DNA from: Haloimpatiens lingqiaonensis
Lineage (GTDB): Bacteria > Bacillota > Clostridia > Clostridiales > Clostridiaceae
Direction: 5' to 3'
Length of the DNA stretch: 38,943 nt
Assembly: GCF_901447495.1 (NCBI RefSeq)
Contig: NZ_CABDWS010000025.1
Location: forward strand, 1-38,943
This document shows positions 5,032 through 24,667 of this stretch, piece by piece. The notes below the pieces were generated by a model. The model searched no databases, was not told the DNA's origin, and worked only from the letters and a program-made list of their open reading frames with translations. Position numbers and translations under genes: made by a program. Numbering within the stretch: the first letter of the stretch is position 1; every line of letters starts with the position of its first letter.

Positions 5032-5060
5032 TTGACATCCATATTTAGTGGTTATATAAT
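5032..5060 (+). promoter_or_regulatory. Consensus sigma-A promoter of the ABC exporter leader
   Basis: TTGACA (5032-5037) and TATAAT (5055-5060) are both perfect hexamers, 17 bases apart. Transcription from here would start near 5067 and give a leader of about 270 nt that carries the structured element at 5161-5295 before the first gene. Confidence 0.85.
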
Positions 5061-5160
5061 ATGATTTCATGGTTAAATTTTTTTGTACATTATTTACTTT
5101 ATTTCATTTATTTATTCATTCATTTTATTTGTTCATATCATTTTATTTCAATTTACTTTA

Positions 5161-5295
5161 TTTATCCGATGACTACCTGACGTAACACCCCCACTTCTAA
5201 CAAAGTGCGAGTTAACGGCAGCTACGTCCCTGGATAACGATCTCTAACCTTCAGTTGGAATAAAAACTCCATCTGAAGCTAAGAGCTCCGTTTAT
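5161..5295 (+). ncRNA. Structured 135-nt leader element, copy A
   Basis: A conserved, highly foldable element whose second copy is at 11459-11593 on the other strand, differing at about six positions. The fold is an outer TTATCC/GGATAA stem, a CTGCCGT/ACGGCAG stem (one mismatch here, perfect in copy B) topped by a CCCACTT...AAGTGGG hairpin, and a second arm CTTCAG/CTGAAG plus GGAG/CTCC around a TAAAA loop. Both copies are flanked by TTTAT. Copy A lies in the 5' leader of the exporter operon, 40 bases before its ATG, behind a consensus promoter. I do not recognise it as a known riboswitch class. Alternatives are a mobile palindromic repeat or an omega-RNA-like relic of an IS200/IS605 element. 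Confidence 0.55.
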
Positions 5296-5335
5296 ATCTA
5301 AATATATTATACATTTCTTTTAAAGGAGGGATACT

Positions 5336-6313
5336 ATGATAGAAGTTGAATCCTTAAGCAAAAGTTTTAAGGTTGTAAAGAGAGGTGCTGGCATTGGCGC
5401 AGCATTGAAATCCTTATTCAAGCCTGAATATTCCACAGTTGAAGCATTAAAGGATGTTTCATTTAAAATTAATGAAGGTGAAATCGTAGGATACATTGGC
5501 CCTAATGGTGCTGGTAAATCTACCACTATTAAAATTATCAGCGGTATTTTAGTACCTGACAGCGGCAAATGCAATATTCTTGGATACACCCCCTGGAAAA
5601 ACAGAGTAAACCATGTCAAAAACATAGGCGTAGTATTTGGTCAACGTTCTCAACTTTGGTGGGACGTGCCTGTAATGGATTCCTTTAATTTATTAAAAGA
5701 CATTTATAAAGTTCCTCAGAAAGAATTTAATGATAATCTGGAATTATTAACATCTACTTTAGATTTATCCTCATTACTTTCAACTCCTGTACGTCAATTA
5801 AGTCTTGGACAAAGAATGAGATGCGAAATAGGTGCTTCCCTACTTCATAGTCCAAAGATATTATTTTTAGATGAACCAACCATAGGCCTCGATGCCGTGT
5901 CAAAAGTGGCAGTTAGAAATTTTATAAAAACTATAAATAAAGAAAAAAAAGTAACTGTTATATTAACCACCCATGACATGAATGATATTGAAGCTTTAGC
6001 TGAAAGAATTATACTAATTGGCAAAGGGAAACTTTTGATGGACGGCACAATTACTGAATTAAAGAATAAGTTTTCAACTCATAAAATATTGAAGGTTGAC
6101 TTTGCTGAAAATCACGAAAATATACATATTTACGGTACTCAGATTATTTCTAGGTCTAAAGAAAATATCACTTTATCCGTAGATTTAGAAAAAATAAAGG
6201 TGTCAGAGGTCATAGGGCTACTATCAAATAAATTAGACATTATTGATGTTTCTGTGGAAAGTCGTCCAATTGATGAAATAATAGTAGACTTATATAAGGA
6301 GTATCAGATATGA
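5336..6313 (+). CDS. ABC-2 exporter ATP-binding protein
   Basis: A 325-residue ABC ATPase. Walker A GPNGAGKST is at residues 55-63, the signature LSLGQ at 155-159, Walker B ILFLDEPT at 175-182, and the switch His in TTHDMND near 214. A long C-terminal extension (about 240-325) is typical of ATPases that work with DUF990/ABC2_membrane_6 permeases. The FGQRSQLWWD stretch near 101-110 is also typical of this subgroup. It would energise export through the next two gene products. A strong AAAGGAGGG precedes ATG. It overlaps the next gene by 4 bases (ATGA), so the two are translationally coupled. Substrate unknown. Confidence 0.92.
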   Translation: MIEVESLSKSFKVVKRGAGIGAALKSLFKPEYSTVEALKDVSFKINEGEIVGYIGPNGAGKSTTIKIISGILVPDSGKCNILGYTPWKNRVNHVKNIGVVFGQRSQLWWDVPVMDSFNLLKDIYKVPQKEFNDNLELLTSTLDLSSLLSTPVRQLSLGQRMRCEIGASLLHSPKILFLDEPTIGLDAVSKVAVRNFIKTINKEKKVTVILTTHDMNDIEALAERIILIGKGKLLMDGTITELKNKFSTHKILKVDFAENHENIHIYGTQIISRSKENITLSVDLEKIKVSEVIGLLSNKLDIIDVSVESRPIDEIIVDLYKEYQI

Positions 6314-10324: not shown

Positions 10325-11251
10325 TTATTGCAATGCTTTTTTCAATATTTCTAAATTGTCATTCATTATAGAGAAATATTCTTTACCCGCGTTCATATCC
10401 TCATCTTTAATGCCTTCTAATGGGTTTAAAATAGCTATTTTAGTTCCTGTTTCTTTTGATATCGCCTCTGCTACCTTAGGGCTTAATAGTTCTTCTGAAA
10501 ATATATATTTAACATTATTTTCTTTTACATAGTTCACTATTTCAGCCATTCTTGCTGGTGAAGGTTCTGACTCCGCATTTAGTCCTTCTATACCTACTTG
10601 TTTCAATCCATAGGCATCACATAAATATCCAAAGGCTTCATGAGATACCACCATGTTCTTTTGGGTAAATTTTCCCACAGCCTCTTTGTATTTTTTATCT
10701 AATTGATCCATTTTCCTAGCATTATCCTCATAATTTTTTTCATAATAAGACTTGTTAGAAGGATCTGCCTTTACAAGTGCGTCTTTAATAGCTTCCATCT
10801 GCTTCTTTGCATTCATAGGATTTAGCCATACATGAGGATCATGCTTTAGGTGTTCATCACCATGAGCATTATCTAAAAGCTTTATTTCCTTAGATGTTTC
10901 CACTGCAATTAAATCCTTATTTTTCAATGTTTTTAATACTTTATCTATCCACCCTTCCATTCCAGCACCATTATAGACAATCACATCTGCCTCTTCAAGC
11001 TCAGCAATATTAGAAGGTTTAGGCTCCCAATCATGTGGCTCAATGCCTGCTGGAACTATATTGGTTATATTCACCTTATCCCCACCAATTTTTTTTGTTA
11101 AATCATACATAGCATAGAAACTAGTATAAACTGAAATCTTATTTTCATCTCTTTTACCTTGCTTTTCCTTAGGCTTATTGCTACACCCTGCTAATAAGGC
11201 TAAACATGCAATAATTATTAATGAAAATATTTTAAAAGTATTTTTCTTCAT
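10325..11251 (-). CDS. znuA: Zinc-binding lipoprotein ZnuA/AdcA-like
   Basis: A metal-binding protein of the ZnuA/TroA (cluster A-I) family, 308 residues from the chosen start. The signal peptide MKKNTFKIFSLIIIACLALLAGC ends in lipobox LAGC, so it is a membrane-anchored lipoprotein. Metal ligands are visible as His in GIEPHDWEP, the short HGDEHLKHDPHVWLNP loop, His in VVSHEAFGYL, and the C-terminal acidic ligand region. An upstream in-frame ATG at 11269 would put the AAAGGG Shine-Dalgarno inside the gene; the ATG at 11251 has it 9 bases away. A Fur/Zur-like operator lies at 11279-11299. Confidence 0.92.
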   Translation of the reverse strand: MKKNTFKIFSLIIIACLALLAGCSNKPKEKQGKRDENKISVYTSFYAMYDLTKKIGGDKVNITNIVPAGIEPHDWEPKPSNIAELEEADVIVYNGAGMEGWIDKVLKTLKNKDLIAVETSKEIKLLDNAHGDEHLKHDPHVWLNPMNAKKQMEAIKDALVKADPSNKSYYEKNYEDNARKMDQLDKKYKEAVGKFTQKNMVVSHEAFGYLCDAYGLKQVGIEGLNAESEPSPARMAEIVNYVKENNVKYIFSEELLSPKVAEAISKETGTKIAILNPLEGIKDEDMNAGKEYFSIMNDNLEILKKALQ

Positions 11252-11278
11252 TACATTCATCCCTTTCAAAAGACCTTT

Positions 11279-11458: not shown

Positions 11459-11593
11459 ATAAACAGAGCTCTTAGCTTCAGATGGAGTTTTTACTCCAAC
11501 TGAAGGTTAGAGATCGTTATCCAGGGACGTAGCTGCCGTTATCTCCCACTTTGTTAGAAGTGGGAGTGTTACGGCAGGTAGTCATCGGATAAA
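11459..11593 (-). ncRNA. Structured 135-nt element, copy B
   Basis: The second copy of the element at 5161-5295, inverted in the window and in the same orientation relative to the next minus-strand operon (znuA, 190 bases downstream). Its pairing is better than that of copy A: TTATCC/GGATAA, CTGCCGT/ACGGCAG, CTCCCACTT/AAGTGGGAG and GGAG/CTCC are all perfect. A terminator-like hairpin abuts it at 11591. Read on the plus strand instead, the element would end directly in that terminator like a free-standing small RNA. The transcribed strand is therefore not certain. Confidence 0.5.
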
Positions 11594-11634
11594 AGCCTTA
11601 TCTGGTATATTTATCAGATAAGGCTTTTATTATA
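11591..11634. terminator. Hairpin terminator, dispersed family member 1
   Basis: AAAAGCCTTATCTG (11591-11604) is a perfect 14-bp inverted repeat with CAGATAAGGCTTTT (11615-11628), followed by TATTATATTT. Related hairpins occur at 19237-19298 and 23193-23249, each 3' of a minus-strand gene. Confidence 0.8.
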
Positions 11635-24352: not shown

Positions 24353-24667
24353 ATGATTAACCCACAATAAGGTACAATGTAATGGAATTATGAAATTTCT
24401 CTTCCATGACTTGCATAGAAGCTCGGAACAATAAATTTAATTTAAGAAATTCTAATCTTTTAGCCATATAAAATTATCTAACGCTCACATTCAGCGTCCT
24501 GCCTCAGGTTCGCTAGCCTGGCGTCTTTGCCAGGCTTACGATAATTTTATCTGTCTAAAAGAAGAATTTCTAAAATTAAATTTAAACAGTGCTTTCGCTT
24601 CTTATGCAAGTCATTCCAGAGAAATTTCATAATTCAAGTAATGTAATACTTATTGTGGGATAATCAT
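24353..24667. mobile_element. MITE-like 315-bp near-palindromic element
   Basis: The left arm from ATGATTAACCCACAATAAG and the right arm ending CTTATTGTGGGATAATCAT are inverted copies that match with few gaps over about 125 bp each. Shared blocks include GAATTATGAAATTTCTCT and ATGACTTGCATA. The centre (24490-24540) is GC-richer and holds a perfect GCCTGGC/GCCAGGC hairpin. No transposase frame is present, so it would be a non-autonomous element. It ends 37 bp before the flavodoxin ATG and may bring or block its promoter. No clear target duplication. Confidence 0.75.

Follow-up and report, generated by a model that had tools for sequence, protein, structure and literature searches.

The 135-base element that precedes an ABC exporter-like gene in the window (the whole stretch of 38,943 nucleotides of Haloimpatiens lingqiaonensis DNA that was analysed) belongs, as a single copy, to a family of short mobile DNA repeats and is not a switch dedicated to the exporter. 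The repeat is dispersed in the genome, four of its insertion sites are empty in a sister genome, its copies share a junction sequence, its hairpins covary and the pentamers at its two ends are unequal in some subfamilies. We put a probability of roughly 0.6 on the reading that the repeat is non-autonomous mobile DNA that moves as a folded single strand through the action in trans of a Y1 HUH transposase, for which a RAYT is the leading candidate. According to this proposal, the mobile unit would be an element of about 130 nt with two covarying hairpins and defined ends, the folded single-stranded DNA of which would be cut and joined in trans by the transposase, and which would be inserted into intergenic DNA on the 3' side of TTTAT, with no duplication of the target. 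The leading candidate would be a 196-aa RAYT-like protein with two genes on one contig (C26) of the same genome. One copy (copy A in Table 1) would have landed between the promoter and the start codon of the exporter, where it is probably transcribed as an incidental leader. We see copy A as an insertion in the leader region of the exporter, with no sign of dedicated control.

Table 1. Positions in the window of the two repeat copies, their parts and the neighbouring features.
Feature	Position	Strand	Basis or remark
Copy A of the mobile two-hairpin repeat (unit of 130 nt and left TTTAT)	5161-5295	+	Family of at least 150 copies; empty site in G001
Left junction TTTAT of copy A, read as target site	5161-5165	+	Junction counts
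Larger hairpin of copy A, arm closed by TTATCC/GGATAA	5162-5237	+	Fold; covariation helices 4-6
GTAG, REP-like, where the inner stem of the larger hairpin starts (5' foot, minus strand)	5222-5225	-	Sequence
Smaller hairpin of copy A	5239-5288	+	Fold; covariation helices 1-3
Right-end TTTAT of copy A, read as element-borne	5291-5295	+	End counts; TTGAT in related subfamilies
Copy B, adjoining a terminator-like hairpin (11588-11631)	11459-11593	-	Alignment to copy A
Promoter-like TTGACA-N17-TATAAT, 5' of the exporter	5032-5060	+	Exact sequence match; also in G001
ABC exporter ATPase-like ORF, 3' of copy A	5336-6313	+	Name inferred from sequence

The preliminary description of this DNA had reported two near-identical copies on opposite strands, both flanked by TTTAT, and had located them correctly: copies A and B are 95.6% identical across 135 nt, TTTAT is seen at both, and their flanks are unrelated. 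It had also called the element highly structured, and both strands of copy A indeed fold better than shuffled sequences, with -37.2 kcal/mol (z -4.6) for the plus strand and -53.9 kcal/mol (z -7.1) for the minus strand when folded as RNA. The better-folding strand is thus the complement of the one used in that description. Two arms closed by TTATCC/GGATAA had been proposed; the closure holds for one arm, but the other is a separate hairpin. The perfect promoter sequence followed by the ATG of the exporter was found as described. Copy B does lie upstream of the znu genes (the znuA-like ORF is at 10325-11269, minus strand) and is oriented relative to them as copy A is to the exporter, but a promoter-like site (11395-11366) is found between copy B and the znuA-like ORF, with 10 of 12 matches, a score no better than that of shuffled sequence, and a terminator-like hairpin adjoins the copy. 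The element had not been recognised as any riboswitch, and Rfam gave no match to it, either in a search of the window at gathering scores or in a search of positions 5050-5400 at E values up to 10. A known Rfam family or an omega RNA was rejected as the identity of the element, as no covariance model matched it. The sole match in the window was elsewhere, a TwoAYGGAY RNA (RF01731) at 24431-24585 on the minus strand with 62.7 bits.

A covariance model built from 26 copies detected at least 150 full-length copies on both strands of the 3.29-Mb genome, and all of the 150 listed candidates match over the full length. Among the listed matches, head-to-tail arrays occur in nine places, with steps of 130 nt and with neighbouring units sharing TTTAT. 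Copies occur in codirectional, divergent and convergent gaps between genes. Placement was studied in 411 kb of the genome, made up of 20 copy-rich blocks and the window, with ORFs of at least 80 aa defined by a simple ORF rule and not by a gene finder. None of the 60 full copies in this sample lies mainly inside an ORF, compared to 3372 of 4880 control TTTAT sites, and when the copies were excised only 6 of 56 insertion sites touched an ORF, each at 3-16 nt from the start or end of it. The place within the gap did not differ significantly from the control (p 0.12). The hairpin beside copy B had suggested a preference for insertion after terminator hairpins; this was rejected, as the fold energies upstream of the insertion sites did not differ from the control (p 0.80; strong folds at 12 of 56 sites versus 98 of 796, p 0.06). 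Judged by GC skew, 42 copies have their plus orientation on the leading-sense strand and 18 have not, while control intergenic TTTAT sites are divided 632:894, a bias that is confounded with gene direction. In other genomes the corresponding counts were 55:24 in G067 (81 of 118 matches listed), 11:12 in G074 (27 of 41), 5:9 in G090 (15 of 45) and 5:8 in G071 (27 of 32), with 21 listed matches near the origin or terminus excluded from these four.

Four insertion sites were compared with the sister genome of Clostridium sp. KNHs214 (G001), copy B being excluded as one side of it alone aligned, and all four are empty there. At the exporter locus the sister genome has the same promoter, with an exact TTGACA-N17-TATAAT, the same ribosome site and the same gene start, and it has no element; copy A is therefore a mobile repeat and not the exporter's own leader RNA. 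Another copy, upstream of one of the RAYT genes, is missing both from the paralogous locus of the same genome (L036) and from the orthologue in the sister genome, each of which has a single ATAAA. The empty sites at the exporter and beside the RAYT gene thus carry one TTTAT or ATAAA only. Contig C1 has a triple array and a lone copy that are likewise absent from the sister genome, as read from the gaps between aligned blocks only. The preliminary description had itself allowed for a mobile repeat with a structure that lets it pass for a leader, for which empty sites in related strains were to be expected, and both the dispersal and the four empty sites speak for this.

The other possibility raised at the same time, a new class of structured leader RNA (riboswitch-like or attenuator) that would control transporter genes, did not stand, and we regard it as very improbable. 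A strong covarying fold and the position of copy A between a promoter and a start codon are what such a class would have, and leader-like placement (on the same strand and at most 300 nt from a start) is seen for 27 of 50 copies as against 473 of 1526 control TTTAT sites; a strand bias would also give such an enrichment. However, the family has its many copies on both strands, in tandem arrays and in convergent and divergent gaps, and where the gap is codirectional, 30 of 43 copies have their weaker-folding strand as the sense strand. A consistent position before genes had been proposed as a mark of a leader class, whereas the copies occupy gaps of every type and the position is not kept at the exporter orthologue, where the leader is without the element. 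In addition, the sister genome G002 has no match. A leader RNA is already largely refuted by the dispersal over both strands and all gap types, the empty exporter leader and the lack of a match in G002, and was rejected.

The ends of the copies are sharply defined. In the own genome, TTTAT forms the right end of all 60 full copies and the left junction of 58 of the 59 with a complete left end, the remaining one having TTTAC. In an overlapping set of 45 copies, the left junction was TTTAT in 43 and TTTAC in two (L039 and L046, both with TTTAT on the right), the right end was TTTAT in 44 and TCTAT in one, and no likeness was seen between the flanks beyond the TTTAT on each side. Both end pentamers are TTTAT also in most copies read from G001, G016, G067, G074, G078 and G117. 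In four further genomes (G090, G036, G071 and G079) the first pentamer of the minus strand is ATCAA in 20 of the 24 copies read and ATAAA in four, while the pentamer at the other end is ATAAA in all 24, so that 20 copies have on the plus strand TTTAT at the left and TTGAT at the right. The single copies of G085 and G003 start on the minus strand with neither standard form. By eye only, the inner segment and the right end seem to change together between subfamilies. Because the end pentamers are unequal in related subfamilies, the repeated TTTAT is not a simple target duplication there, and duplication of the target was ruled out on this ground, in agreement with the two copies that have TTTAC on the left and TTTAT on the right. 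Unequal ends fit the pattern of IS200/IS605 elements, in which the left site belongs to the target and the right site to the element. As for terminal inverted repeats, no relation is seen by eye between one end, CCGATGAC, and the other read in reverse, ATAAACAG.

Covarying stems had been named in the preliminary description as a mark of a new leader class, and they were found. Among 23 diverse copies, changes on both sides were seen at 28 of 53 pairs compared to 14.3 in shuffles, and 87.1% of the cells were paired compared to 36.7-52.0% for slid versions. The pairing of the inner GGATAA with the left TTATCC is kept in nearly all of the 23 copies. In the copy that adjoins the RAYT gene, the hairpins are nearly perfect (z -15.8 as DNA). 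On the minus strand of the diverse set, G-U pairs outnumber A-C pairs by 34 to 12 (p 0.0016), which favours folding of the minus strand; among the copies of the own genome the ratio was 20:15 (p 0.50). The copies of the window and most aligned relatives have GTAG at the foot of the inner stem on the minus strand, and it is replaced by GTGC, GTAT or another sequence in some. Matches of about 185-190 nt recur in G067, G022, G040, G090, G035 and G074, and the longer version, read in G090 only (L154/L203), has its additional length of about 50 nt in the larger hairpin, on the loop side.

The repeat is not confined to one species. Within the genus, 60 matches were found in G001 and none in G002, and at least 40 of the 96 sampled genomes of the same family carry the element. 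The loci L132 and L133, chosen for copy B and for G002, gave no match either. In a class-wide sample at least 20 of 291 genomes match, of which 8 are among the 13 shown as belonging to the same family and 12 among the other 278 or so; the filters were strict and 251 non-matching genomes were not listed by name, and these counts are lower bounds. No copies were found in plasmids, phages and viral contigs, a part of this search having been made with one exact pattern only. The mean identity of copies within a genome was 0.947 in the own genome (61 rows) and 0.981 in G001 (15 top-scoring copies, some of them in larger duplications), followed by 0.93 in G078 (7 copies) and G117 (7), 0.92 in G071 (7), 0.88 in G090 (6), 0.83 in G067 (8), 0.80-0.83 in G016 (13), 0.81 in G074 (7), 0.80 in G079 (9) and 0.77 in G035 (5; a sixth copy gave no end motif). 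The samples are mostly of the best-scoring copies and some left ends were misplaced in G079, G071 and G090, which makes the values a rough guide. The two youngest sets of copies are those of the own genome and G001, which have an intact RAYT, yet G079 has a RAYT and old copies.

Transposition as a folded single strand seems rather probable from the fixed junction, the unequal ends and the hairpins, whereas the RAYT can be named as the mobilising enzyme only tentatively, at somewhat less than even odds. Both RAYT-like proteins of the own genome have 196 aa; the sole NCBIfam match is NF047646 with 72.5 bits, below the cut-off of 80, and the match to Pfam Y1_Tnp is above the cut-off (44.6 bits, cut-off 23). 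An HUH motif (NHVHI) and a tyrosine in SRYIHLNP are present, which we take to be the catalytic residues. A search by sequence for relatives with a solved structure gave none at E values up to 0.01. In 3 of 24 genomes of the family a clear copy lies no further than about 1.5 kb from the RAYT, when the best RAYT locus of each is considered and weak element matches in L117 and L125 are excluded: in the own genome at 84 nt from the RAYT start (the second RAYT locus, L036, being without a copy), in G003 about 40 nt past the RAYT stop, and in G079 just after the RAYT, with another copy 600 nt further. Outside the family, none of 20 RAYT loci has an adjoining copy. The element is present in 16 of 24 genomes with a short RAYT versus 24 of 72 without (Fisher p 0.008, with kinship ignored), and in the genus the short RAYT and the element occur together in the own genome and G001 and are both missing from G002. 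On the other hand, the short RAYT is absent at E<1e-50 from 24 of 40 genomes with the element, and the element is absent from 8 of the 24 with a short RAYT. Outside the family the RAYT matches are only 32-45% identical and mostly longer, and were found in 8 of 12 element genomes versus 4 of 15 others, which is a weak contrast. Also against the proposal, the strand data disagree, the orientation counts between genomes and the pairing counts between the diverse set and the own copies.

The RAYT is a tentative choice of mobiliser, since there are element genomes without any Y1 match. In G006, G009 and G016 the element is present and a Y1_Tnp match is absent at E values up to 0.001. Together with the small number of genomes in which a copy adjoins a RAYT, this could mean that the same repeat is moved by an enzyme of another kind, such as a recombinase of the tyrosine or serine type or a reverse transcriptase that works through an RNA copy, and that the neighbourhood of the RAYT is coincidental. 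We consider this unlikely: the fixed pentamer, the unequal end pentamers and the paired hairpins fit HUH-Y1 elements, and in G016, the one of the three genomes in which identity was measured, the copies are old, which allows for an enzyme that has been lost. Alternatively, the transposase could be an IS605-type TnpA, which the own genome encodes in a tnpA-tnpB pair on contig C32 (locus L031). IS200/IS605 elements insert beside a fixed pentamer without duplication and have hairpins near their ends, and the repeat has the same traits; a likeness, noted post hoc, also seems to exist between the CCCA..TGGG stems of the L031 hairpins and the apex (CTCCCACTT/AAGTGGGAG) of the larger arm. This is nevertheless quite unlikely in our view, as not all genomes with the repeat have a Y1_Tnp match, and as in G001, with its near-identical copies, the best Y1_Tnp match has 144 bits and is of a longer type, compared to 155 bits for L031. 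Moreover, G001, G090, G032 and G088 have multi-copy IS200 elements whose ends showed no likeness to the repeat by eye, and IS200 ends were rejected as its source on the basis of these four genomes. A Y1 transposase acting in trans, with the RAYT as its first candidate, is the reading that we retain.

Some further observations were made at these loci. The hairpins that flank the tnpA-tnpB pair of L031 are at 280-340 and 1960-1995. The short RAYT closely adjoins a comM-like gene, presumably of the Mg-chelatase family, in L101, L102, L106, L110, L112, L116 and L120, with a remnant in L036; in L116 the RAYT frame runs into the comM-like gene. In the same locus, which is from G079, two copies of the repeat (2115-2244 and 2715-2844) lie inside the comM-like frame behind the RAYT, and insertions of about 130 nt should break the frame. 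G028 has 12 RAYT matches, of both length types and including fragments, and no element was found in it; its RAYTs may serve another repeat family.

In its behaviour the repeat family resembles REP or IS200/IS605-type DNA, although some of the features that define these groups are missing from it, and it is at most a putative member of either. As in REP/REPIN-BIME systems with their RAYT (TnpAREP), there are many short palindromic intergenic copies with an irregular stem, GTAG is at the foot of the hairpin stem in most aligned copies, and the genome holds a RAYT-like HUH-Y1 gene, which in some genomes has an adjoining copy. In contrast to REP sequences, which are given as 20-50 nt in the available part of PMC8266576, the element is longer, consists of two different hairpins in a fixed order, and has sharp TTTAT ends and tandem units of 130 nt; GTAG is not universal in it, and the own RAYT stays below the NCBIfam cut-off. 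It shares with IS200/IS605 the hairpins near the ends, the insertion at a fixed pentamer without target duplication and, in some subfamilies, the unequal pentamers, but it has 130 nt without a transposase gene and no ends in common with the IS200 copies examined. In IS608, as the same part of PMC8266576 describes it, a guide sequence lies 5' of each palindrome, whereas in our element the left end has its pairing partner in a single GGATAA inside the repeat. Classical MITEs such as RUP, ERIC and NEMIS, as presented in the part of PMC3733652 consulted, are similarly small, non-coding, structured, intergenic and high in copy number; unlike them, the element is without terminal inverted repeats by eye and without target duplication. 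It is possible, although doubtful, that the family represents a REP-like lineage throughout Clostridia, moved by RAYTs and characterised by sharp ends, a fixed TTTAT site and one internal GGATAA that pairs with both termini.

We found no description of this two-hairpin family in the literature searched, which included PMC3116915 as far as its text was available and had most subscription papers and preprints outside its scope. The passages of the REP literature that were available describe no such repeat in Clostridia, and 'Clostridi' is absent from the main text of PMC3733652 and PMC2817692. Clostridia are named for subclass 1.1 in the account of distribution in the available part of PMC6006769. 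For C. perfringens and C. tetani, the accessible part of PMC2267715 tabulates clusters of stem-loops but gives no sequences, and these may include a relative of the element, which would then be an earlier sighting. The spread of REP-type repeats is called unresolved in the sections of PMC8266576 that were seen, and the present element is a good test case for the spread of repeats of REP/IS200 type: its copies are nearly identical, its target is defined and a sister species has clean empty sites, so that cutting, joining and insertion are directly testable. If the repeat does belong to a REP-like lineage moved by RAYTs, it would offer a RAYT-repeat pair with readable junctions, empty sites and target choice, and such a pair would help to settle whether RAYTs really transpose repeats. 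The results also suggest caution, as an intergenic sequence of Clostridia that folds well and covaries may belong to mobile DNA instead of being a riboswitch.

The own genome contains a second dispersed repeat, unrelated to the first and about 141 nt long, at L256:14631-14772 (about 100630-100771 of contig C1). Rfam has no match at this locus, and in G001 the repeat occurs in 18 places at 85-89% identity and in two at 76-77%.
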